In this document: piece by piece, positions 1,805 to 64,000 of the stretch
How positions within the stretch are numbered: the first letter of the stretch is position 1
How the letters are laid out: each line of letters starts with the position of its first letter
NCBI RefSeq assembly: GCF_009695635.1
Contig: NZ_VUNN01000001.1
Coordinates: 1 to 64,000, forward strand
Direction: 5' to 3'
DNA from: Bullifex porci
Lineage (GTDB): Bacteria > Spirochaetota > Spirochaetia > Sphaerochaetales > Sphaerochaetaceae
DNA: 64,000 bases
Made by a program: the position numbers and the translations under genes
The notes under the pieces: generated by a model
Told to the model about the DNA's origin: nothing
Database searches by the model: none
Seen by the model: only the letters and a program-made list of their open reading frames with translations

Positions 1805-3352
1805 TTAGAACTTGATTGTACATGTAGCGTCAACCTTACCAAACTGCTGATCGATTGCCTGATCCTTGAGAAGGTTCTGATCTTTATCACCTGCACCATA
1901 AGCAAGCTTGAGTGTTGCACCTGGGATGATTGCATCAGATTCAACAGAAGCTTTAAGTGTTAACTGTGCTGCATCTTTTACACCCTTATAAGAGTTGAAT
2001 CCAACTTCTGCTTTTGCAGTAAATAGATCATGAGCATATTCTACACTAGCACCAAGGTAGTAATTCTTAGATTCGAATTTATAACCACCATTAGCACCAA
2101 GCTTAATAGCATCGATTGCTATTTCTGCTTTAGCACCGTAATCCTTTGCATTGAGCATGTCTTTTCCGTATACAGTAAGTTTTACAGGAAGTTCAAATGT
2201 TGAAAGATCTGTTGCAACCTGAGCACTTAAAGTGTGAGCTAAAAGTTTTTCCTTTGTTGAACCATTTTCGTTAGCTTTAGCTAAATAACCATTTAGGCCA
2301 TAGTAAGCATCAACTGTTACTGGAGCAAATGCTACTTTTGCAGATGCATCGAAGTAAGAATATAAATTATCCTTTACAATTAGAGTTTCCTTTTCACCAT
2401 ACTGGATTGCATCAAAGTCAGCTGCTACTGCTACTGAAAGAGCATCTGTTGCATATCCTACTTTTGCTGATGTATTTAATGCGAACTGATAATACTTTGG
2501 AACTGAGTTTTTAATATCTATACCATATCCATCTTCATCATTTCCAGTATACTTCCAATTTCTTTCACCTTCATGATATTTCGCATTATAATTATCAACC
2601 TTTCTTGAAGCACCTACTGCAGCCTGAAGTGTTAAACCATTAACATCATAAGAAGGAGTCTCTACAAATACATTGTAGTTAAAGAATTTTCCTAATTCAA
2701 CTTCTTGTTTTGTTGTCTTTCCTGTCAATTTTTCTTCTTTTACTTCATATAAATCTATTTCAGCTGTTCTAGCTTCGTTTTCAGATCCTTCGAAACCAAC
2801 AGAAGCCTTGTAACCAGCAACTTCTATTGTTACACCTGGAGCCTTATTGAAAGCGAAAAGATCACCTGTTACATCATCTGCAACATCTTTAGTATCTGTA
2901 GTTTTGTTACCAAATACATCTTTTACTGCTTCCTTATGTGTTGTAAATGACTTAGCATAGCTTGTTGCACCCTGTGTACCTGTGATTGCTACCTTCCAGT
3001 TTGCTCCTGCTACATATGCTTCAGCTACATCAAGGAATAAACCTAAACCATAGTTTTTTACTGCATCATCTTTGCTGTTCCAAAAAGCTGAACCTTTATC
3101 TAGTTTAGCCTGGTTAGCAACCTTAACACCCATTGTTGCCTTGATACCTGCATAGATATCACCCTCTGCAACATTGCCAGCTTCTGCTGTTGAGAGGTCT
3201 ACATTTACGTCAAAACCTGTTCCGTTTGAGAAACCATATTTCTTAGTCTCCCAGTTGTATCCGAGACCTACTGTAGCTTTGCCTGAGAAGCCTGCGAATA
3301 CGGAACTAACTGCTAGAACTGCTACTAATAGAATAGCAATTGTCTTTTTCAT
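1805..3352 (-). CDS. Putative outer-membrane beta-barrel protein
   Basis: The 515-aa product starts with a classical signal peptide (MKKTIAILLVAVLAVSSVFA, cleavage after about residue 20). It continues as many alternating short amphipathic strands separated by Gly/Asp/Lys-rich turns, such as KATVGLGYNWE near the N-terminus. It ends in CTIKF, and a C-terminal phenylalanine is typical of BAM-assembled barrels. No known porin family is recognised by eye. Start: AGAGGAATT precedes the ATG. The gene lies head-to-head with an integrase only 33 bp away, so its promoter probably overlaps the integrase 5' region. It is followed by two terminators, so it is monocistronic. Confidence 0.75.
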   Translation of the reverse strand: MKKTIAILLVAVLAVSSVFAGFSGKATVGLGYNWETKKYGFSNGTGFDVNVDLSTAEAGNVAEGDIYAGIKATMGVKVANQAKLDKGSAFWNSKDDAVKNYGLGLFLDVAEAYVAGANWKVAITGTQGATSYAKSFTTHKEAVKDVFGNKTTDTKDVADDVTGDLFAFNKAPGVTIEVAGYKASVGFEGSENEARTAEIDLYEVKEEKLTGKTTKQEVELGKFFNYNVFVETPSYDVNGLTLQAAVGASRKVDNYNAKYHEGERNWKYTGNDEDGYGIDIKNSVPKYYQFALNTSAKVGYATDALSVAVAADFDAIQYGEKETLIVKDNLYSYFDASAKVAFAPVTVDAYYGLNGYLAKANENGSTKEKLLAHTLSAQVATDLSTFELPVKLTVYGKDMLNAKDYGAKAEIAIDAIKLGANGGYKFESKNYYLGASVEYAHDLFTAKAEVGFNSYKGVKDAAQLTLKASVESDAIIPGATLKLAYGAGDKDQNLLKDQAIDQQFGKVDATCTIKF

Positions 3353-3385
3353 AATTCCTCTTTGAAATAAGAGCTGGAGGAATAT
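3353..3385. promoter_or_regulatory. 33-bp divergent region with a 7-bp inverted repeat over both ribosome-binding sites
   Basis: ATTCCTC (3354-3360) and GAGGAAT (3377-3383) are perfect inverted repeats. Each contains the Shine-Dalgarno sequence of one of the two divergent genes. The space is too short for two ordinary promoters, so at least one promoter must lie inside the neighbouring coding sequence. Confidence 0.5.
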
Positions 3386-4582
3386 ATGGCTAAACGAAGA
3401 AAGTTTTATTTATATCAGAGACAGAAGAAATATGGGAAATACTATTATGTTTGTTATATTGATCCTGAAACTGGTAAGCAGGGGAATGCTAAGAGTATTG
3501 ATGTACTTAAGGAAAAGCTGGGACTTGGAGATAATGAGACAACAACAAGTAGAGATGATGCAGTAATTATTGCTCACAAGGCTTTAGAGGCTGGATTAAT
3601 TTTTAGTAGTGGAGCTGAGGAGTGTTTCTCATCATATTGCTTATCCTTTTGGGATTTTGATAATAGTGATTACATTAAGCTTAGAAATTTAGTATCTCCA
3701 AATTCTATTGGAAGAGAATATGCTATGAACATGCTTTGTAATTTAAAAAAGCATGTTCTACCATTTATACCACAAAGTATAAAGCTTTCAGCTATTACTA
3801 CTAGACATCTAGATAAAATAGTTACTGAAGCATTCTCTGCAGGGCTTGCTAATGGAACTATTCAGATGATAATCCTATCCTTTTCTGTTCCATTAAAGGA
3901 GGCTGTAAGGCTTCGGTATATTGTTAATAATCCCTGTGATGGTTTAATGAAAATACCAAGAAAGGAAAAGAGTAGGGGTGTTTTTACAGATGATGAAATT
4001 AAGAGGATTATCAAGGAAGTAGAAAATAGTCCAAAGCCTATTAAGAATGCTGTTAAGCTTGCAATTACTACTGGGATGAGAAGTGGAGAAATTAGAGCTT
4101 TAAAGAGTTCTAATATAATAAGGAACTATTATATAGGAGAAAATAGTAAGGTATATGATAAGGTTTTAATTACACACTCTTTAGCTCCATATAGTGGTAT
4201 TAAAGCTACTAAGGGTAAATATGATAGAGAGGTATTAATTCCTTCAAGCTTTGGTGAAGAATTAATAGGCTCTAGTATTAATGATGTAATTATTACCTTT
4301 GATGGCTCCTATGTTTCTTCATTGACACTTCGTTTATCGTTTTATGAAATATTAAAAAATATTGGATTAAGTGAGGAAGTTAGAAAAACTCGTCGATTAA
4401 CCTTTCACTCCTTAAGGCACTACTTTTCAACATATACATGTCAAGAGAATATAAGCCAGGAGGATAGGATGTTAGTGCTTGGACATAGGAGTGAAAAAGT
4501 TAACTCCCGCTATACTCACATAAGTGACTTACGCTTAGAGCGTGTAGCAGGAGTTGTTGAAGCTCTATTTGATAGTGAATGA
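3386..4582 (+). CDS. Tyrosine recombinase / phage-type integrase
   Basis: The 398-aa protein has a SAM-like core-binding region (about residues 60-185) and a C-terminal catalytic domain. The full catalytic set is visible: R232 (TTGMRSGEI), a Lys in the beta-hairpin (KATKGKYD), H341-x-x-R344 (HSLRH), H367 (LGHRS) and nucleophile Y376 (SRYTH). The basic N-terminus (MAKRRKFYLYQRQKKYGKYY) resembles an arm-binding domain. A GGAGG Shine-Dalgarno sequence lies 4 nt before ATG. No phage or conjugation genes flank it, so it is a solo integrase. It could act on its own DNA arms or on the adjacent omp region. Confidence 0.85.
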   Translation: MAKRRKFYLYQRQKKYGKYYYVCYIDPETGKQGNAKSIDVLKEKLGLGDNETTTSRDDAVIIAHKALEAGLIFSSGAEECFSSYCLSFWDFDNSDYIKLRNLVSPNSIGREYAMNMLCNLKKHVLPFIPQSIKLSAITTRHLDKIVTEAFSAGLANGTIQMIILSFSVPLKEAVRLRYIVNNPCDGLMKIPRKEKSRGVFTDDEIKRIIKEVENSPKPIKNAVKLAITTGMRSGEIRALKSSNIIRNYYIGENSKVYDKVLITHSLAPYSGIKATKGKYDREVLIPSSFGEELIGSSINDVIITFDGSYVSSLTLRLSFYEILKNIGLSEEVRKTRRLTFHSLRHYFSTYTCQENISQEDRMLVLGHRSEKVNSRYTHISDLRLERVAGVVEALFDSE

Positions 4583-51687: not shown

Positions 51688-54600
51688 ATGATCTTTGCAA
51701 ACGATGACTTAGCTGACAACATGAGACTTGATAAAGCTAAGAGGAATGTACAAGAGGCTTCGCAGTATTTCGAGAACGATGTAGTCAGTATCGCAAGGAT
51801 CATAGCAATGTATTATCCTCTTGAGATATTAAAGATGTCCGCTTGGGAAGAGAGGAGAATACATCTTTCTAAGAATGATAAGGCCTCCATGATGGAAGCC
51901 TCCTTCCTACCATTATTGCTTCAATCAATTGTTCAAAGTAAAAAGTTCTACAGTGAAAAGGGCTTTTCTGCTAATCGTGATATTAAAGAAAAGGATTGGA
52001 ATAGAATTAAAGCCCTTTCAAAGGATGCCTTCAAACGTCTTACTTGGTATATTGAAAACTACGCTGTAATCCAAGTTAAAGAGGGCGTAATATCTCCAAG
52101 CCACTACACAATCTATCGTGATACCTTACTAAATCAATATTGTTATCCAACACTACCAGATGAAATAGAGGAGCAAGTTAAGGAATTAGCACACTCTATA
52201 TTTGTCGATGATGAGAGTAATGTTAAAGCTATTTTAGGAGTCGATGCTAATTTCTTTGCTAATGAGCTATCTAAAATTTGTGATAATGGAAAAAATGGTA
52301 TTTCTGAGTTATCAAGTGAAAGCTCTATACTCCATGCTGAGATAGATTTAAAGATTGCAAAGCTAAAAAGTGAAGATCCATCAAAGAGTGAAAAGGAGCT
52401 AATGAGCAGAGTAATTCGTGAGGGTGGATACTCATATAAGCTAGAAGAGCTTAGAAGAAAGAGAGATGATTTTGATCTCTTTGAGGTTGAAAGAGTAACA
52501 CTATTAAGTACTCATGCCTTAAAGCAGCTCTCTGCTACTGTTGGCTCCTATGAGGGTGACTTCATTAAAGATGGCTTTATGAGTGCAACAATAAAACCAT
52601 TCTTACGTTTTGCTGACCGCTTCTATCTATTTACTGGAAGAACACTCTTTTCTTCTCTTCCTGTCTCTTTTAAAGAGGCTGGAATTATATCTAATGATAA
52701 GCTTCAAAAGCTATTTTCCAACTATATTTTAAAGCTATTTTATGAAACTGATAGTGTTGATGTTTATCAATGGCGTGGTAATAGATTTGATATTTCATTG
52801 CTTCCAACCTTAAATTGGAAAAACTGGTTTAATGAGCCAGCTCATTTTGAATCAACACTATTACAAATTGAAGAAGAAAAGAGTAGAAAGCCACAGCTAG
52901 GTCACACAAGGCTAATCGTATTCCCAAATAATGATCAAAAGCTTGAAAAGCTTGCTGATAATACCTTCTCAATATCTCTTTCTGAATACGTTCACATCGT
53001 AAATAACGAGAATCTTACTAAGGAGTTCTTTAGAGCACTACTTGGACCTTTTAAAATTGAAAAGGGTGAGATGGAAGCCTTTGAAGATGTAATCGACGAT
53101 GATGACTATCTTACAGAGGAAAGCCATAATGAAGAAATAGAGCCTTTATCATCTGAGATTGAATATGAGTATGATAGTAGAGATGATGATGAAAAGGCGA
53201 TTGAAATCGAAAATAGATTAAATAATTCAGAGCCAAGTAATAATGACTATGGATATAAGATTCCTACTGCTGAGGAGCTAGAGAACCTTAAGGAGCGTTA
53301 TGCTCTTCCTGAAACATTTAAAAATGAAAGAGTTATTGAAGAGCTTGATGCTCTTGAAACAGATGAGTTTGATCAAACAACTCAAGAGGATGAGCTACCT
53401 AGCTTAGAAAATGATGAGCTTTCTGATATTGATGAGGATGATTATCTAACTGAAGCTGAGGAAGAAAAGGATGAAGAGTTTGTCGATGAAGACCCTGTTA
53501 CCTCATTCTTAGACGATGATGATTATGATGAGCAGCCAACTCTATTTGATCCTCTAAATCCAACTCAACCAAACTTTAATGCAATTTATACACCTCATCC
53601 AGACCATGCAGAGGAGGAATCCTTAGCAGAGGTTGAGGATGATACTGAATTACTTCACCTTGAGGATGGTGTATCAGAGGAAGAAACATTAAATGAAGAG
53701 GAAGATGATTTAGAAGAAGAGCTTCCTATTGATGAAGCTGATATCGATGAAAGCTCAGAAGAAAGTGGAAACACTGAAGAGGAAACTCTAGCAGAGGTTG
53801 AAGATGATATAGAGCCTCTACACATAGAGGATGGTGTATCAGAGGAAGAAACATTAGCTGAAGAGGAAGATGATTTAGCAGAGGAGCTTCCTGTTGAAGA
53901 AGCTGAATATCCTTTTGAAGCTGATGATAGCTCTGAAGTAAGAGAAAAATCTGAAGAGGAATCTTTATCAGAGGTCGAAGAGGATATAGAGCCTCTACAC
54001 TTAGAGGATAGTGCTTCAGAGGATGAAACACTATCTGAAGAGGAAGATGATTTAGCAGAAGAGCTTCCTATTGAAGAGATGGTTCCAGAAGAAGAAACTC
54101 CTGCTGAGGAAGAAACTCCTGTTGAAGAAGAACTTCCTGTTGAAGAAGAACTTCCTGTTGAAGAAGAACTTCCTGTTGAAGAAGAACTTCCTGTTGAAGA
54201 AGAACTTCCTGTTGAAGAAGAATCTCCTGTTGAAGAAGAATCTCCTGTTGAAGAGGAAACTCCAGTAGAAGAAACTTCTGTTGAAGAAGAAACTCCAGTT
54301 GAGGAAGAAACTCCTGTGGAGGAAGAAACTCCTGTGGAGGAAGAAACTCCTGTGGAGGAAGAAACTCCTGTGGAGGAAGAAACTCCTGTGGAGGAAGAAA
54401 CTCCTGTGGAGGAAGAAACTTCTGTGGAGGAAGAAACTCCTGCTGAGGAAGAAACTCCTGCTGAGGAAGAAACTCAAGTAGAGGAAGAATCTCAAGTAGA
54501 GGAAGAATCTCCTATTGAGGAAGAAGCTCCTATTGAGGAAGAAGCTCCTGTTGAACTTCAAATTGAAGATGAATTCCCACCTTTAATTGATGATATCATC

Positions 54601-54996
54601 AAGTCTTTAGGAAATAATCGCTGTCGTGCTTTTGAAGAGTTTATTAACGATGTTGATGAAAATGTATTAAATTCCTTTGTTGAGGTTGTTACAAAGTGCT
54701 TCAAAGCTCAGCAGCTAGATAAGAAGGATAAGATGTTTACAATCTTTGATTTCAGCCTTTCTGTAATAGTTGCAATGGAGAAGCGCATCGACCAATTAAG
54801 GAAGAATGAGCTTAGAAATAACGTTGGTGGTGTTATGGTTTCTCAGGATGCTGACTCTTGGACTAGCTTAATTCTAACCTTTGATGAGGATATGAATCTT
54901 AAGAGTGCTACTGGAGAGGATATTTCACAAAAGAGCTTCTCAGCGTATGACTGGAAGATAGTAAGAGTAATTGGGAATAAATTAAAAGATAAATGA
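51688..54996 (+). CDS. Large acidic repeat protein of unknown function, 1102 aa
   Basis: The N-terminal 480 residues look globular and helical (for example ENDVVSIARIIAMYYPLEIL and RFADRFYLFTGRTLFSSLP), without signal peptide or membrane segments. They are followed by an intensely acidic region of about 470 residues made of two kinds of repeat: three copies about 170 bp apart, each with an ESLAEVEDD...EPLHLEDG...EEETL pattern, then about two dozen PVEEEx hexapeptides. The C-terminal 145 residues (DEFPPLIDDIIKSLGN, then NVLNSFVEVVTKCF) return to a globular composition. It is likely cytoplasmic, with a flexible charged linker. ATG follows AAGGAATTA. It is co-transcribed with the aminotransferase and IMPase genes. 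Confidence 0.75.
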   Translation: MIFANDDLADNMRLDKAKRNVQEASQYFENDVVSIARIIAMYYPLEILKMSAWEERRIHLSKNDKASMMEASFLPLLLQSIVQSKKFYSEKGFSANRDIKEKDWNRIKALSKDAFKRLTWYIENYAVIQVKEGVISPSHYTIYRDTLLNQYCYPTLPDEIEEQVKELAHSIFVDDESNVKAILGVDANFFANELSKICDNGKNGISELSSESSILHAEIDLKIAKLKSEDPSKSEKELMSRVIREGGYSYKLEELRRKRDDFDLFEVERVTLLSTHALKQLSATVGSYEGDFIKDGFMSATIKPFLRFADRFYLFTGRTLFSSLPVSFKEAGIISNDKLQKLFSNYILKLFYETDSVDVYQWRGNRFDISLLPTLNWKNWFNEPAHFESTLLQIEEEKSRKPQLGHTRLIVFPNNDQKLEKLADNTFSISLSEYVHIVNNENLTKEFFRALLGPFKIEKGEMEAFEDVIDDDDYLTEESHNEEIEPLSSEIEYEYDSRDDDEKAIEIENRLNNSEPSNNDYGYKIPTAEELENLKERYALPETFKNERVIEELDALETDEFDQTTQEDELPSLENDELSDIDEDDYLTEAEEEKDEEFVDEDPVTSFLDDDDYDEQPTLFDPLNPTQPNFNAIYTPHPDHAEEESLAEVEDDTELLHLEDGVSEEETLNEEEDDLEEELPIDEADIDESSEESGNTEEETLAEVEDDIEPLHIEDGVSEEETLAEEEDDLAEELPVEEAEYPFEADDSSEVREKSEEESLSEVEEDIEPLHLEDSASEDETLSEEEDDLAEELPIEEMVPEEETPAEEETPVEEELPVEEELPVEEELPVEEELPVEEELPVEEESPVEEESPVEEETPVEETSVEEETPVEEETPVEEETPVEEETPVEEETPVEEETPVEEETPVEEETSVEEETPAEEETPAEEETQVEEESQVEEESPIEEEAPIEEEAPVELQIEDEFPPLIDDIIKSLGNNRCRAFEEFINDVDENVLNSFVEVVTKCFKAQQLDKKDKMFTIFDFSLSVIVAMEKRIDQLRKNELRNNVGGVMVSQDADSWTSLILTFDEDMNLKSATGEDISQKSFSAYDWKIVRVIGNKLKDK
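53610..54070 (+). repeat. Three imperfect coding repeats about 170 bp apart
   Basis: Units starting near 53610, 53780 and 53955 each encode a glutamate-rich block (ESLAEVEDD, HLEDGVSEEETL, EEEDDL-EELP), with divergent spacers between them. They lie directly before the hexapeptide repeats of the same gene. Confidence 0.75.
54082..54555 (+). repeat. 18-bp tandem repeat array coding for PVEEEx
   Basis: About two dozen 18-bp units occur in frame. They form sub-blocks of near-identical DNA: five successive CTTCCTGTTGAAGAAGAA units, and then six successive ACTCCTGTGGAGGAAGAA units. One unit near 54260 is three bases short. Sub-blocks with separate codon choices indicate repeated local expansion. 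The period keeps the reading frame, so copy number can vary without loss of the protein. Confidence 0.92.
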
Positions 54997-55754
54997 TTAA
55001 ACAGAGATACGAATTTACAAAAAAACTAATAAAAAATGCTGGAGCATTTCTTCTTGAACATAAGGCAGAGAGAGTAAATATTACAGCTAAGAGTTCAAAT
55101 GATTATGTAACAGAAGCTGATAAAAAATGTGAAGCCTTAATTGTTTCAGCTATTAAGAAGGAATATCCAGATGATGGCTTTTACTGTGAAGAAAGTGGAA
55201 AAGAAAAAAGTGACTCTAGCTTTACTTGGGTAATCGATCCAATCGATGGAACTGTAAATTATATGAATACATTCCCTCTCTATTCTATTTCTATCGCATT
55301 AAAGCATAATGATGAAATAGTAATGGGATGTGTATATGTTCCAGAATATGATGAATTATTCTCAGCTATGAAGGGCTGTGGTTCATATTTAAATGGAGAA
55401 AAAATTGAGACTAGTAAAGAATCTGAAATGAAAAGATCTCTAGCCCTATTAGTTCCACCTCATAGACACTATAATGAGCTTGAATATTACATGGAAAGAT
55501 ACCTTAAGGTTTTAAAGGCTGTTTCTGATGAAAGATCAATAGGCTCAGCTGCTGTTTCCTTATGCTATGTAGCAAGTGGTAGATGTAGCATTTACTATGA
55601 ATTATGCTTACACCTCTATGATTTTGCTGCAGGAGCATTAATCCTAGAGGAGGCTGGTGGAAGGGTAAAGCTACAGCCTCGTGAAGAGGAGATGTATGAC
55701 GTTATTTCCTCCTGCCCACAATTTTTTGATAAGCTTTTGGAGTTAACTAAATGA
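54993..55754 (+). CDS. Inositol monophosphatase family protein
   Basis: This Mg-dependent, Li-sensitive-type phosphatase is 253 aa. Metal ligands are visible in FYCEESGKE (Glu about 67), WVIDPIDGTVNYMN (Asp-x-x-Asp about 87-90) and the last Asp in LHLYDFAAGALILEEAGG (about 205), where the usual WD is YD. Substrates of bacterial members include inositol phosphates, fructose-1,6-bisphosphate and PAP, so the specific role is open. ATG overlaps the upstream stop by 4 bp (ATGA), and the next ORF overlaps it by 4 bp. Confidence 0.85.
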   Translation: MIKQRYEFTKKLIKNAGAFLLEHKAERVNITAKSSNDYVTEADKKCEALIVSAIKKEYPDDGFYCEESGKEKSDSSFTWVIDPIDGTVNYMNTFPLYSISIALKHNDEIVMGCVYVPEYDELFSAMKGCGSYLNGEKIETSKESEMKRSLALLVPPHRHYNELEYYMERYLKVLKAVSDERSIGSAAVSLCYVASGRCSIYYELCLHLYDFAAGALILEEAGGRVKLQPREEEMYDVISSCPQFFDKLLELTK

Positions 55755-56788
55755 TAAAAGCCGTCCTCTTTGATTTAGATGGAACCCTTTTTGATTCATC
55801 AAGTGGAATTTTCCATACAGCTAACTTTACTATGAGAGCTCTTGGCTTTGAAGAGTGCCATGACGAAAAGCAACTAAGAAAGTTTGTCGGACCTCCTCTA
55901 AGAGAGTGCTTTAGAATTACATATAATACTGCTGAAGAGTATCTTGATCGCTGTGTTGAGGTATATAGAGAAGAGTATAGAAAAACTGGTATGCATATGT
56001 GTTATCCCTATCCTGGGATAGTTGATTTACTAAAGTTCTTACGAAACCATGGTATAAAGACAGGTGTATGCACTCTTAAATATGAAACACTAGCAGTTGA
56101 TATTATTAAGGAAAAGGGGTTGTTTGAGCTCTTTGATGTAATATTTGGAACTGATAGTCAAGGTAAAATAACTAAAGCCGATTCAATTCAAAATGCTATT
56201 AATCGTTTAGGTGTAGATAAAGAAGATGTTTTAATGGTTGGTGATACCTTAAATGATTTAAATGGAGCAAGGGAAGTTGGTGTTAGCTTTTGTGGTGTAA
56301 CTTGGGGCTTTGGCTTTGAAAAGGATAGTGACGTCACATCAGGCTTTGCGGCTAGAAATTGTGATGATATAATAAAGCATGTGATAAAGGAGAATAGCAT
56401 TATGGAAATTAAAAAAATTAATACCGATAAGGCACCTGCAGCTATTGGTCCATACAGCCAGGCAGTTGCAGTAGGTGATATGATTTTCTGTTCAGGACAA
56501 ATTCCAATAATCCCTGAAACTGGAGCAATTTTAGAGGGTAGTGCAGCAGAGCAGGCAGAGCAGTGCTTTAAGAATATTAAAGCAGTTTTAGCTGAAGCTG
56601 GCACAGATATTACTCGCGTTGTTAAAGCAACAGTATTCTTAAAGGATATGGCTGACTTCGTACCAGTTAATGAAGTTTATGCAAAGGCCTTTGAAAATAG
56701 TACAGTTTTACCTGCAAGATCTGCTGTACAGGTTGCAAAGCTTCCTAAGGATGTAAAAGTAGAAATTGAAGTAATTGCTGTTAAGTAA
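55751..56788 (+). CDS. HAD phosphatase - RidA fusion, with an internal RidA start
   Basis: Residues 1-212 are a HAD phosphatase of the phosphoglycolate-phosphatase/PpaX type: FDLDGTLFDSS, motif II VCTLKYE, motif III VLMVGDTLNDLNGAR. From about residue 218 (ATG 56402) a full RidA enamine/imine deaminase follows: PAAIGPYSQAV, FCSGQIPI, and the catalytic Arg in PARSAVQV. The frame is open across the junction. AAAGGAG lies 9 nt upstream of the internal ATG, so free RidA can also be made. RidA protects PLP enzymes from 2-aminoacrylate, which suits the several PLP enzymes here. Overlaps convergent ybaK by 8 bp. Confidence 0.82.
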   Translation: MIKAVLFDLDGTLFDSSSGIFHTANFTMRALGFEECHDEKQLRKFVGPPLRECFRITYNTAEEYLDRCVEVYREEYRKTGMHMCYPYPGIVDLLKFLRNHGIKTGVCTLKYETLAVDIIKEKGLFELFDVIFGTDSQGKITKADSIQNAINRLGVDKEDVLMVGDTLNDLNGAREVGVSFCGVTWGFGFEKDSDVTSGFAARNCDDIIKHVIKENSIMEIKKINTDKAPAAIGPYSQAVAVGDMIFCSGQIPIIPETGAILEGSAAEQAEQCFKNIKAVLAEAGTDITRVVKATVFLKDMADFVPVNEVYAKAFENSTVLPARSAVQVAKLPKDVKVEIEVIAVK

Positions 56789-57306: not shown

Positions 57307-58452
57307 TTACATCAACTGTCTGAACATTGCTTTAAAGTCGTCAATAGATGCTTCCTTAGGGTTACCTGGAGCACAAGCATCTGCAGCAGCACTCTGTGCA
57401 AGGAATTCAAGATCCTCTTCCTTAATTGCAGCAAGCTTAGCAGGAATTCCTACATCTGCACTAAGCTGTCTAACAGCCTGGATAGCAGCAGCTCTGTATT
57501 CATCCTGCGTCATAGAATCAACACCCTTAACACCCATTACTCTTGCAATTTCACGATACTTTTCGCCAGTAGTTTCTTTGTTGAAATCCATAACGATAGG
57601 GAGCATCATTGCACAAGCAACTCCATGTGGAGTGTCATATACAGCACCAAGTGTATGAGCCATTGAGTGTGCGATACCAAGACCAACATTAGAAAATCCC
57701 ATACCTGCAATGTATTGACCAAGAGCCATACCCTCACGGCCTTCCTTCTCATTATTTACAGCACCTCTTAAGGACTTTGAGATGATCTCGATTGCTTTGA
57801 GATGGAACATATCAGACATTTCCCAAGCACCTCTAGTTGTGTAGCCCTCAATAGCGTGAGTAAGAGCATCCATACCTGTTGAAGCTGTAAGGCCCTTAGG
57901 CATTGAGCTCATCATATCTGGATCTACAACTGCAACAATTGGCATATCATGTGGATCAACACAAACAAACTTTCTCTTCTTCTCAACATCTGTGATTACA
58001 TAGTTAATTGTAACCTCAGCAGCTGTACCTGCTGTTGTTGGAACAGCAATTATTGGTACACAAGGCTTTTTAGTAGGGGCAACACCCTCTAGTGATCTAA
58101 CATCCTCAAATTCAGGGTTAGTAATAATGATACCAATAGCTTTAGCTGTATCCATTGAGGAACCACCACCAATAGCAATAATATAATCTGCCTTTGATGC
58201 CTTGAAGGATTCTACGCCATGCTTAACATTCTCAATTGTTGGATTTGGCTTGATATCTGAATAAATATCATAAGCAAGACCTTCATTATCAAGAATATCT
58301 GTTACCTTCTTTGTTACATTAAATTTGATTAAATCAGGATCTGAGCATACGAAAGCCTTCTTAAATGCTCTTGCCTTTGCTTCATTTGCAATCTCTTTAA
58401 TAGCACCATAGCCATGGTAGCTAGTCTCATTTAACATGAATCTGTTAGCCAT
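57307..58452 (-). CDS. fucO: Lactaldehyde reductase (iron-containing alcohol dehydrogenase)
   Basis: This group III iron-dependent dehydrogenase is 381 aa. It follows E. coli FucO closely along its length by eye: MANRFMLNETSYHGYGAI, YIIAIGGGSSMDTAKAIGII (nucleotide loop, about 92-110), VPTTAGTAAEVTINYVITD, and metal ligands in MDALTHAIEGYTTRGAW (Asp/His about 195-200), AHSMAHTLGAVYDTPHGVA (His about 263 and 277). It reduces L-lactaldehyde to 1,2-propanediol during fucose/rhamnose fermentation. AAGGAG lies upstream of ATG. No fucose catabolic operon is beside it. Confidence 0.92.
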   Translation of the reverse strand: MANRFMLNETSYHGYGAIKEIANEAKARAFKKAFVCSDPDLIKFNVTKKVTDILDNEGLAYDIYSDIKPNPTIENVKHGVESFKASKADYIIAIGGGSSMDTAKAIGIIITNPEFEDVRSLEGVAPTKKPCVPIIAVPTTAGTAAEVTINYVITDVEKKRKFVCVDPHDMPIVAVVDPDMMSSMPKGLTASTGMDALTHAIEGYTTRGAWEMSDMFHLKAIEIISKSLRGAVNNEKEGREGMALGQYIAGMGFSNVGLGIAHSMAHTLGAVYDTPHGVACAMMLPIVMDFNKETTGEKYREIARVMGVKGVDSMTQDEYRAAAIQAVRQLSADVGIPAKLAAIKEEDLEFLAQSAAADACAPGNPKEASIDDFKAMFRQLM

Positions 58453-58572: not shown

Positions 58573-58601
58573 TTGAAGATAGAATAAATATCTGTTAATC
58601 T
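58573..58601 (+). promoter_or_regulatory. Probable promoter of the pyrimidine operon
   Basis: TTGAAG (58573-58578), 17 bp, then TAATCT (58596-58601) with an extended TG motif (TGTTAATCT). Transcription start near 58608 would give a short leader with the Shine-Dalgarno sequence of the leader ORF at 58611-58617. The rest of 58453-58621 is AT-rich and also holds the minus-strand fucO promoter region. Confidence 0.45.
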
Positions 58602-58621
58602 TCACCACTTAGGAGAGCAAT

Positions 58622-58708
58622 ATGATAGGTTTGAGTTTTTTGTTAACAAATAAAAATATTTCAACTCATAGCTCTTTTATTCTCTCTTATATTATTGATT
58701 TTGTTTAA
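58622..58708 (+). CDS. pyrL: pyr operon leader peptide (28 codons)
   Basis: ATG 58622 is preceded by AGGAGAG at 4 nt spacing and opens 28 codons (MIGLSFLLTN ... SYIIDFV) ending at TAA 58706-58708, 2 nt before the attenuator stem. The last 40 nt are very rich in T (CTCTTTTATTCTCTCTTATATTATTGATTTTGTTT). The layout is that of the E. coli pyrL leader: at low UTP, RNA polymerase pauses in the U-tract, the ribosome catches up and blocks the terminator. It has the same position but no visible sequence similarity to E. coli pyrL, so the mechanism is inferred from geometry. Confidence 0.65.
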   Translation: MIGLSFLLTNKNISTHSSFILSYIIDFV

Positions 58709-58709
58709 T

Positions 58710-58737
58710 GGTCCCCTTTTTGTGGGACTTTTTTTTT
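58710..58737 (+). terminator. Attenuator: terminator with nine T between the leader ORF and pyrBI
   Basis: GTCCC (58711-58715) pairs with GGGAC (58724-58728) around CTTTTTGT, with an added G-T pair outside. It is followed by nine T (58729-58737). The T-run touches the pyrBI Shine-Dalgarno sequence (GGAGGAAAAG, 58738-58747). The stem begins 2 nt after the leader stop codon, so a ribosome at the stop would cover its 5' arm. Confidence 0.75.
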
Positions 58738-58747
58738 GGAGGAAAAG

Positions 58748-60408: not shown

Positions 60409-61107
60409 ATGAAAACAATAGAAGAAATTACTAGATACTACGGTCCACAGCTTGCAAAGGGTGCATTTGAGCTTGGTGCAATTAGACTAAGTCCAAATGA
60501 TCCATTTACTTGGGCAAGTGGATATAGAATGCCAATTTATAACGATAATAGACAATTCTTAGCAAAATCATCTTATAGAGCATTAATTTGTGATGCTTTT
60601 TCAGATATGCTAGCAGCGCTTGATTTCGATCCTGAAAATATTGCAGGAACTTCTACTGCTGGAATTCCACATGCAACAACCCTAGCTGATAGACTCCATA
60701 AGCCACTTTCATACATTCGTTCTTCAAGTAAGGACCATGGACTTCAGAATCAAATTGAGGGTCTTGGAAAGAATGGCTCCTATGAGGGAAAAAAGGTTGT
60801 ATTAATTGAGGATTTAATTAGTACCGGTAAGTCATCACTACAGGCTGTTAATGCAATTATTAACGCAAATGGCTTAGTACCATATTGTTTAGCTATCTTC
60901 ACATATGGTTTAGATGCCGCAACAAAGGCATTTGAGGCTGTAGAGCCAAAGTGCGAACCATTTACAATTCTTTCATACCCAGTAATGATCCAGACAGCTG
61001 TTGAGGTTGGATATATTAATGATGAGGATGCTAAGACTCTCCATGAGTGGAGAGAGGACCCATTTGCATGGGGTGCTAATCATGGCTTTGAGAAGGTAGA
61101 GAGGTAA
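60409..61107 (+). CDS. pyrE: Orotate phosphoribosyltransferase
   Basis: The enzyme joins orotate and PRPP to give OMP. The 232-aa protein has the N-terminal FELGAIRLSPNDPFTWASGYRMPIY (orotate site), the flexible catalytic loop (IRSSSKDHGLQNQIEG, Lys about 108) and the PRPP motif VVLIEDLISTGKSSLQA (about 127-143). ATG 60409 has TAGGAG 6 nt upstream; an in-frame GTG at 60403 is less likely. It is third in the pyr pathway block, 3 bp before pyrF. Confidence 0.93.
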   Translation: MKTIEEITRYYGPQLAKGAFELGAIRLSPNDPFTWASGYRMPIYNDNRQFLAKSSYRALICDAFSDMLAALDFDPENIAGTSTAGIPHATTLADRLHKPLSYIRSSSKDHGLQNQIEGLGKNGSYEGKKVVLIEDLISTGKSSLQAVNAIINANGLVPYCLAIFTYGLDAATKAFEAVEPKCEPFTILSYPVMIQTAVEVGYINDEDAKTLHEWREDPFAWGANHGFEKVER

Positions 61108-61110
61108 TAT

Positions 61111-61989
61111 ATGAGCTACATTGAATTACTAAGACAAAGTGCAGAGGCTGTAAATAATATTGTATGTATGGGCTTAGACCCTCAAATTGATGCGCTTCCA
61201 GGAGAAGGTAGCCCAAGAGAAAAGATTAATACCTTCTTCGATGAGCTATTTCATAGGATGAAGCTTGAAGGAGTATCTCCTGCAGCATTTAAGCCAAATA
61301 TTGGATATTACAGTGCACTAGATAATCCTAGAGAGGATGATTTCTCTGGCTCCCAGGCACTTTGTGATGTACTTGATATGCTAGATGGCTTCTTCCCTGG
61401 TATTCCTGTTATCCTTGATAGCAAGAGAGGTGATATCGCACGCTCAAGCTTAAATTATGCAATTGAAGCCTTTGATAAGTGGGGTGCTAATGCAACTACT
61501 ATTTCACCATACATGGGAACAGACTCTATCTTACCATTTGCATATGAGGATAAGGGTGTATATATCTTAAATAGAACTAGTAACCCAGGTGGTGCTGTAT
61601 TACAGAACCTACATATCCTTGATCCAATCGATGAGAAGGAAATATATCCACTATACACTGCTGTTGCTCATTTAATTGCTTCACTTGCAAAGGACCATCT
61701 AGGACTTGGAGCTGTAGTTGGTGCTACAAATATTCAGGAGCTTAAGGATATTGCAAAGTATTACGCTAATAAGGATATCCCAATGCTTATTCCTGGAGTT
61801 GGTTCTCAGGGAGGCTCAGCAGAGGAGGTTATGGCTGCATTAAGAGGTGAGGGATATGATATTAAGCTTGCACGTATCAACTCTTCAAGTGCATTAACTC
61901 ATCCTTGGAAGAAGGCTCCAGTTCCTGAGGATTATTTAGATATTTGTTTAAAGAATATTAAGTCTCTCGTGGAGAAATGCTCTCTATGA
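61111..61989 (+). CDS. pyrF: Orotidine-5'-phosphate decarboxylase (type 2)
   Basis: The enzyme decarboxylates OMP to UMP. At 292 aa it belongs to the longer subfamily 2. Motifs are CMGLDPQIDALP, FKPNIGYYSAL (about 67), the catalytic DSKRGDIARSS (about 109-117; Asp-Lys-Asp), TISPYMGTDS, and LIPGVGSQGGSAEEV (phosphate site). GGTAATAT precedes ATG with AGAGAGG a little upstream. The 3' end overlaps pyrDK. Confidence 0.93.
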   Translation: MSYIELLRQSAEAVNNIVCMGLDPQIDALPGEGSPREKINTFFDELFHRMKLEGVSPAAFKPNIGYYSALDNPREDDFSGSQALCDVLDMLDGFFPGIPVILDSKRGDIARSSLNYAIEAFDKWGANATTISPYMGTDSILPFAYEDKGVYILNRTSNPGGAVLQNLHILDPIDEKEIYPLYTAVAHLIASLAKDHLGLGAVVGATNIQELKDIAKYYANKDIPMLIPGVGSQGGSAEEVMAALRGEGYDIKLARINSSSALTHPWKKAPVPEDYLDICLKNIKSLVEKCSL

Positions 61990-63710
61990 TTGATAGAATT
62001 AAATCTATTAAGGGTGCACACCTAAATAATGGTGTGCATCTTTCTACTGTAAGTGGTGTTGCTTCAACAAAGCCAGAGCTAGTTAGATATTTTGATAAAA
62101 AGCAGGAAGCTATAGATATTATCACAACTAAAAGCTTCCAGGTTAATCCTAATCCAGGAAATAGAGAGCCTGTAATTTGTGAGATGGCTCCAGGGTCTTT
62201 TGGTAACTCTGTAGGACTAAGAAACCCAGGTCTTGAAAAGAGCTTACCACCACTTGAAAAACTAAGAAATGAAGGATTAAGAGCACTTTTAAATGTTTCA
62301 GTAAGTGCTTCAAATGTTGAAGATTTTATTACTCTTATAAAGGCCTTTGATAATATTGCTGATTCAATTGAATTAAACTTTTCATGTCCTCATGCAGCAA
62401 AGGGCTTTGGCGCATCTATTGGATGTGACCTAAATATTGCAGCTGAATATGTAAGAGAGATAAGAAAAGCATATCCTGAGCAAAAATCAGCACTCCTAAT
62501 TAAGCTTACTCCAAATGTTGAAGACATTGGAGCAATAGCTAAAGCTGTTATAGCTGAAGGTGCAGATGGTATCGTTGCAATTAATACTGTAGGCCCTGAG
62601 GTTCATATCCATAAGGAAAGTGGCCTTCCAATTCTAAATAACAAGCTTGGTGGAAAGGGCGGTAAGAGCGGTAAATGGGTTAAGCAGAGAGCTCTTGAGG
62701 CTGTTAAGCAAATTAGAGATGCTATTGGAGACGAGCCTATTATCATAGGAATGGGTGGAATGTGTGATGCCTATGATGTTGCTGCAATGGTTACAGCCGG
62801 TGCCGATGCAGTTGGACTTGGCTCTGTATTTGGAACTGTTAATCAGCAGGATTGGAAAGCATATTTAGATACTCTAAAGGATGAAAGCATTTCATTACTT
62901 AGTGGTAATGAGATAGCTAACAAGGCTTCTAAATATATTAGACAGGATAATAGAATGGAGTATACTAAGCATAAGGTTATCTCTGTTGTTGAGCATACTA
63001 AGGATATGCTTATCCTCACTCTTAGTGGAAAGCTTAATTGTCAATCTGGAGAGTTTGCATTCCTATTTATTCCAGGAAAGGGCGAAAAGCCATTTAGTGT
63101 AGCTCATAATTCTCCATTAACCTTCTTAATTAGAAGAAGAGGTGAATTTACAGATGCTCTCTTTAATCTTAAGGAGGGTGATGAGGTTTACACTAGAGGG
63201 CTATATGGCAAGCCTCTAAGCCATGAGAAAAAGAAGAATGTTCTCTTAATTGGTGGTGGCTCTGGTGTTGCTGTTCTTCCATTACTCTGCGATATGATTA
63301 AAGCAGATGATTCAAAGGTAGATGTATTAGTTGGAACTACATTAGAGCCAATTGGTGTTGATGGAAAGGCGCTCTTTGAGGATTTCTTTAAGAACTTTGG
63401 CACCTACACTGTTATTGCAGATGAAGGAAAACCAGGTAGAGTATTAGACCACATTAGCGAGCACTTAAGAAGTGTCTCTGATACTGCAGTATATATCGTA
63501 GGACCTGAGAAATTTATGTCTATAGCTGCTAAAAAACTCTTAGAGCTAGGTGTAAGTAAGGACTATATTTATCTTTCTATGGAGAGAAGTACTATGTGTG
63601 GTATTGGTATGTGCGGTGAATGTGTTTGTGGTGATCGTTTAGCTTGCCAATATGGTACATTCTTTACATATACATATCTACTTGAAAATGCTAAGGAGCT
63701 ACTTGGATGA
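61977..63710 (+). CDS. pyrD: Dihydroorotate dehydrogenase catalytic-electron transfer fusion (PyrD-PyrK)
   Basis: The enzyme oxidises dihydroorotate to orotate. Residues 1-315 are a class-1B FMN barrel: FQVNPNPGNREP, LNFSCPHAAKGFGASIG (active-site Cys region, about 135), LIKLTPNVEDI, IIGMGGM and GLGSVFGT. Residues about 325-577 are the PyrK flavoprotein: VAHNSPLTFLIRR and LYGKP in the FAD domain, GGGSGVAVLPLL (NAD site, about 425) and the 2Fe-2S cysteines in TMCGIGMCGECVCGD...CQYG (about 541-560). PyrD and PyrK are usually separate. ATG 61986 (ATGA overlap with the pyrF stop) is an alternative start to 61977. Confidence 0.9.
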   Translation: MLSMIDRIKSIKGAHLNNGVHLSTVSGVASTKPELVRYFDKKQEAIDIITTKSFQVNPNPGNREPVICEMAPGSFGNSVGLRNPGLEKSLPPLEKLRNEGLRALLNVSVSASNVEDFITLIKAFDNIADSIELNFSCPHAAKGFGASIGCDLNIAAEYVREIRKAYPEQKSALLIKLTPNVEDIGAIAKAVIAEGADGIVAINTVGPEVHIHKESGLPILNNKLGGKGGKSGKWVKQRALEAVKQIRDAIGDEPIIIGMGGMCDAYDVAAMVTAGADAVGLGSVFGTVNQQDWKAYLDTLKDESISLLSGNEIANKASKYIRQDNRMEYTKHKVISVVEHTKDMLILTLSGKLNCQSGEFAFLFIPGKGEKPFSVAHNSPLTFLIRRRGEFTDALFNLKEGDEVYTRGLYGKPLSHEKKKNVLLIGGGSGVAVLPLLCDMIKADDSKVDVLVGTTLEPIGVDGKALFEDFFKNFGTYTVIADEGKPGRVLDHISEHLRSVSDTAVYIVGPEKFMSIAAKKLLELGVSKDYIYLSMERSTMCGIGMCGECVCGDRLACQYGTFFTYTYLLENAKELLG

Positions 63711-64000
63711 TTGATGCACACGTTCATTTGCGAGACTTTAACCAAAAAGAAAAGGAAACTATTGAGCATGGCTTAAGAGTTGCCAAATTAGCTGGCTTTC
63801 AAAGAGTATTTGATATGCCAAATTGCAATCCTCCATTAACTAGTAAGGAGGTTGTGCTAGAACGCTTAGCTCTCGCAAGTGAAAGTGTAAAAAAGCATAA
63901 GGTCGCTTACCACCTTTATATGGGCTTAACTAATGATGAAGAGCAAATAAAGGAAGCTGTTAATACCTATTTTATGCTCTTTCCATTAGTTGTTGGCTTA
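63707..64000 (+). CDS. pyrC: Dihydroorotase PyrC, N-terminal part (cut by window end)
   Basis: 98 codons are visible: MIDAHVHLRDFNQKE with the metal-binding HxH, then FDMPNCNPPLT, the Asn-Pro motif of dihydroorotases, and YHLYMGLTND. ATG overlaps the pyrDK stop as ATGA. The short N-terminus beginning directly with the HxH strand fits the smaller type of dihydroorotase. It forms dihydroorotate from carbamoyl-aspartate and completes the pathway between PyrBI and PyrDK. Confidence 0.85.
   Translation, partial: MIDAHVHLRDFNQKEKETIEHGLRVAKLAGFQRVFDMPNCNPPLTSKEVVLERLALASESVKKHKVAYHLYMGLTNDEEQIKEAVNTYFMLFPLVVGL

Follow-up and report, generated by a model that had tools for sequence, protein, structure and literature searches.

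The pyr operon that closes the window (the whole stretch of 64,000 nucleotides that was analysed) is probably controlled, in its entirety, by a translation-coupled attenuator of the pyrBI type, in which the ribosome-binding site of the leader would itself be gated; this assignment is drawn from the sequence of the locus and of its relatives. An earlier sequence-only reading had proposed a pyrBI-type attenuator, and the proposal is supported, given that a short ORF and an intrinsic terminator are kept in all 100 usable non-redundant spirochaete pyrBI leaders. Leaders of this kind are thus not confined to enterobacteria: the layout best described there recurs in many families of a second phylum, whose leaders have no sequence in common, and the hundred natural variants, free in their peptide and fixed in their geometry, expose a hairpin at the leader ribosome site. 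This hairpin, and the existence of clades devoid of Shine-Dalgarno sequence, hairpin and T tract, go beyond what the sequence-only reading contained.

The leader and the pyr operon of the window

The features of the locus are collected in Table 1. The layout described beforehand (Shine-Dalgarno sequence, 28-codon ORF, T-rich tract, terminator and nine T) was right in its coordinates, and the T run does touch the pyrB Shine-Dalgarno, as had been remarked. As for the promoter-like sequence, it recurs at the same position in the two closest relatives (L033 and L034: TTGAAG/TTGATG, 17-nt spacer, TATCCT/TATCTT), while its resemblance to the sigma-70 consensus is weak and it is absent from the listing of the consensus scan. 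Transcription is expected to start at about 58608, almost on the leader Shine-Dalgarno, whose AGGAG lies at 58611-58615.

Table 1. Features of the pyr leader and operon in the window
Feature	Position	Strand	Basis
Promoter: TTGAAG (58573-58578), 17-nt spacer, TAATCT (58596-58601)	58573-58601	+	Sequence and two closest relatives
Leader Shine-Dalgarno and 5' arm of ribosome-site hairpin, UAGGAGAG	58610-58617	+	Fold; pairing peak in 89 leaders
Leader ORF, 28 codons, MIGLSFLLTNKNISTHSSFILSYIIDFV, stop TAA	58622-58708	+	ORF list; frame open in relatives
T-rich tract within leader ORF	58676-58709	+	Sequence; T enrichment across leaders
3' arm of ribosome-site hairpin, CUCUCUUA, within T-rich tract	58682-58689	+	Fold
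Intrinsic terminator: 6-pair stem, 8-nt loop, nine-T run (58729-58737)	58710-58737	+	Sequence; shuffles
pyrBI Shine-Dalgarno, GGAGG, directly 3' of T run	58738-58742	+	Sequence
pyrBI, fused ATCase catalytic and regulatory chains, 531 aa	58748-60343	+	Pfam OTCace_N, OTCace, PyrI, PyrI_C
pyrE, orotate phosphoribosyltransferase	60409-61107	+	Pfam Pribosyltran; name from operon position
pyrF, OMP decarboxylase	61111-61989	+	Pfam OMPdecase
pyrD, dihydroorotate dehydrogenase	61977-63710	+	Pfam DHO_dh
pyrC, dihydroorotase, continues past window end	63707-64000	+	ORF list; named by eye

The stop codon of the leader is 1 nt 5' of the terminator stem, GGUCCC/GGGACU (58710-58729), which consists of five Watson-Crick pairs and one G-U pair; one terminator was found in the window leader against 0.1 expected in shuffles, a value above chance. 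The gene 5' of the leader (57307-58452, minus strand) is divergent from pyrBI, so the plus-strand terminator is not its own.

Regarding the operon, pyrBI starts with an ATG, the ORF of pyrE as listed begins at GTG 60403, and the C-terminal part of the pyrD product resembles, by eye, an electron-transfer subunit. The closest relatives of this pyrBI among named records were from Spirochaetales and Sphaerochaetaceae MAGs, and they suggest Sphaerochaetaceae as the family of the genome. Two other genes of the window may be mentioned: in a single ORF of 345 aa (55751-56788), a RidA (L-PSP) domain is joined to a HAD-type hydrolase, and RidA-family genes adjoin pyrBI elsewhere too, yjgH being just upstream of E. 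coli pyrL; a large protein (51688-54996) has a long glutamate-rich repeat (EEETPVEEE...), encoded by a tandem repeat.

The absence of a pyrR gene and of a PyrR-type structure, noted beforehand, was borne out: pyrR, the only regulator gene sought, had a best match of 23.5 bits against a cut-off of 138 bits in a genome 96.7% complete (2.42 Mb), and at the Rfam gathering score the leader matched no RNA family and no PyrR-binding RNA element. Both PyrR and the Rfam families were rejected on these results. Attenuation by PyrR or by a riboswitch would account for a terminator in front of a pyr operon, and it is very unlikely in view of these scores and of the lack of any conserved aptamer-like sequence among the leaders. 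Finally, a leader of the pyrBI kind was looked for at carA and pyrG of the same genome and was absent; of the operons examined, only that of pyrBI thus has the device.

Conservation of the leader ORF and terminator

Homologues of pyrBI were searched in 61 genomes and then in 139 genomes of the family, and their upstream regions were extracted; dereplication gave 104 terminator-bearing leaders, 100 of them usable, and since these are phylogenetically related, counts across leaders are not independent. The ORF was open to 12 nt or less 5' of the stem in 100 of 100 leaders, against 34.7 expected, a count for which the ORFs were partly chosen for openness and some starts were placed by hand. In an unbiased subset of 75 leaders, for which only the start with the best Shine-Dalgarno was used, the coding frame was open in 75 of 75 and the other two frames in 27 and 20. 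As for the position of the stop (n = 100), 48 ORFs end 0-10 nt 5' of the stem, 34 within the hairpin itself and 18 past it, with a median of 70.5 nt from the leader start codon to the stem; in some relatives the ORF, like pyrL, crosses the terminator and continues as far as the start of pyrB. That the terminator belongs to another transcript and the ORF arose by chance is an extremely improbable explanation: short ORFs are commonly found by chance, but the upstream gene is divergent, and ORF and terminator recur together in the 100 leaders with an openness that is specific to one frame.

The content of the peptide, instead, appears free. In independent pairs of related leaders, the differences in the leader ORF were distributed over the three codon positions as 55/55/51, against 11/4/58 at the pyrBI start of the same pairs, used as control. 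No amino acid was strongly enriched, arginine and serine showing a mild excess in the leader frame over the other frames (ratios of 1.49 and 1.40, respectively), and conservation at the peptide level was sought with no overall excess of synonymous changes. Because the frame is kept open, the codons are free and no amino acid is strongly enriched, these comparisons indicate that translation of the leader matters, and that the sequence of the peptide does not. Free codons and the lack of a strongly enriched amino acid are also consistent with UTP sensing and argue against tRNA sensing; the comparison of related leaders that the sequence-only reading had proposed shows ORF and hairpin terminator recurring, with variable codons, as expected for UTP sensing rather than for the sensing of an amino acid.

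An amino-acid attenuator, sensing charged tRNA through the leader codons, would explain why the ORF adjoins the terminator and could draw on the arginine and serine ratios; it is highly improbable, as there are no notable codon runs and no conserved residue, codon positions are unconstrained, and the product of the operon is pyrimidines. Amino-acid sensing was rejected: the clustered codons that such a sensor would read were not found in the leaders. A few suggestive peptide motifs were seen, namely R.RY in genus g3 and family f17, and KKPD in f22 and G280; four leaders from two families (L159, L188, L189 and L190) share KKPD (in L159, KKPDI) and use different proline codons for it, which hints, in that group only, at conservation of the peptide.

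A hairpin at the ribosome site

The leader Shine-Dalgarno is complementary to a pyrimidine-rich stretch that ends about 17 nt 5' of the stem; in the window, the two arms of the hairpin pair as in Table 1, and the leader (58608-58709) folds better than its shuffles, with a z of -2.28. Across the 89 leaders with a Shine-Dalgarno, pairing between the ribosome site and the distal leader was 0.64 against 0.34 when shuffled, with 17 of 19 clades above, and the pairing profile peaked near the Shine-Dalgarno (0.77 against 0.36 shuffled). Since the register of the pairing slides between species, swap tests were substituted for classical column-wise covariation: exchange of ribosome sites within a genus weakened the pairing, and the own partner was better than those of congeners in 14/14, 13/14 and 28/38 cases in three genera. 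Taken at the sequence level, pairing of the ribosome-binding site of the leader with its pyrimidine-rich tract is conserved.

A like fold, pairing the ribosome site with the U tract, was obtained for E. coli pyrL and for the pyr leaders of Klebsiella, Proteus, Photobacterium and Aeromonas, the p values of the five gammaproteobacterial leaders (0.034, 0.14, 0.26, 0.006 and 0.008) being not each individually significant. In the Neisseria comparator, there was no open leader from the start tried.

The U-rich tract and the proposed mechanism

The T fraction was 0.43-0.52 in the 25 nt 5' of the stem and 0.17-0.33 farther upstream. T before the stem exceeded that of the rest of the ORF in 96 of 100 leaders, and T over the last 30 nt exceeded that of the first 60 nt of pyrBI in 87 of 100; it should be noted that the comparators in these counts are the rest of the ORF and the pyrBI start. 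Local clustering of T, tested separately, did not reach significance (8% at p ≤ 0.05), so the claim is restricted to regional T enrichment. Some leaders of the Sphaerochaeta-like genus g3 (e.g., L119 and L143) have a weak tract.

The conserved open frame suggests that readthrough depends on translation of the leader, and we infer UTP as the signal, a pause of the polymerase, blocking of the terminator by the ribosome and a gating role for the hairpin. A ribosome would load on the leader and trail RNA polymerase to the stop codon beside the terminator, where it would mask the 5' half of the terminator stem-loop, so that transcription could proceed into pyrBI; if no ribosome trailed, transcription would end among the nine T. 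A shortage of UTP would slow the polymerase where the leader ORF becomes U-rich, with two effects: the ribosome would catch up, as proposed for E. coli, and the pyrimidine-rich strand, which otherwise shuts the leader ribosome-binding site, would be synthesized late. At high UTP, the U-rich strand would be made quickly enough to close this site before a ribosome could load.

A simpler scheme, with coupling of the plain E. coli type, invokes pausing in the U tract and ribosome catch-up alone, and the hairpin would be either a pause hairpin or a by-product, a purine-rich ribosome site merely lying opposite a pyrimidine-rich tract. It is a serious possibility, if somewhat short of an even one: T enrichment carries on into the last 15 nt or so 5' of the stem, a stretch without raised pairing, and the hairpin of many leaders stops about 17 nt short of the stem and is followed by T-rich sequence, but the pairing centres on the Shine-Dalgarno and has a species specificity that composition does not explain. 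As for the pause-hairpin version, one pause of E. coli pyrL is reported not to be stabilized by NusA, and compensatory hairpin mutants gave no rescue (PMC9291695); that pause is about 24 nt upstream of one studied earlier, and the result weakens the classical pause-hairpin reading, though for a different pause position.

Turning back to the gated leader, it is conceivable, if rather doubtful, that the U-rich tract doubles as the strand that closes the leader ribosome-binding site in the pyr attenuators of several phyla, that of E. coli among them. If true, the UTP level would set a race between synthesis of the closing strand and ribosome loading, and UTP-gated initiation on the leader would be added to the model of pausing and catch-up.

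In the clades without a Shine-Dalgarno (e.g., L122, L128, L129, L136, L139, L140 and L146), ORF and terminator are kept, and the ORF begins near the expected transcription start and still stops at the terminator. In these leaders the ribosome site is unpaired and a T tract is slight or missing, so UTP pausing cannot account for them in full.

Comparison with known systems

At the level of sequence features, the spirochaete leaders agree with the UTP-sensitive pyrBI circuit of E. coli (PMC10135430, PMC5021804, PMC3641672): promoter, leader ORF, U-rich tract, terminator and pyrB follow in the same order, the peptide is free, and in both the leader ribosome site pairs with the U tract. Unlike in E. 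coli, pyrB and pyrI are fused in the window and head an operon with pyrE, pyrF, pyrD and pyrC, in a spirochaete; the leader sequence is unrelated to that of pyrL, and its ORF stops just before the stem. PyrR attenuation of the Bacillus type likewise has a terminator upstream of the pyr operon, whereas here the leader would be translated, and neither PyrR nor a PyrR-binding RNA was found. With ribosome-mediated attenuators of the trp/his type, the leader would share a termination decided by translation of its ORF; differently from these, no sensor codons and no alternative antiterminator hairpin were noticed. A literature search found nothing on pyr attenuation in spirochaetes.

Distribution and origin

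In the class sample, inspected by eye, similar leaders occur in families f3, f4, f5, f17, f22, f24, f25, f34 and f40, and in single genomes of f26 and f11; they were unseen in many other families of the sample, where pyrBI is often directly behind another gene. The spirochaete leaders may be convergent, or old with rapid turnover. Two contigs labelled Ruminococcaceae and Clostridia (L019 and L020) have a pyrBI (match at 3001-4569) that is 72% identical to that of the window and a like leader, which points to either horizontal transfer or mislabelled bins.

Finally, in Ilyobacter (Fusobacteriota; L174, 380-550), an annotated hypothetical ORF before pyrB runs into a terminator, and AGGTAGAAAA at the start of this ORF matches TTTTTCTACCT downstream in the same kind of fold; judged on this likeness, the region is likely a leader of this kind in a third phylum.
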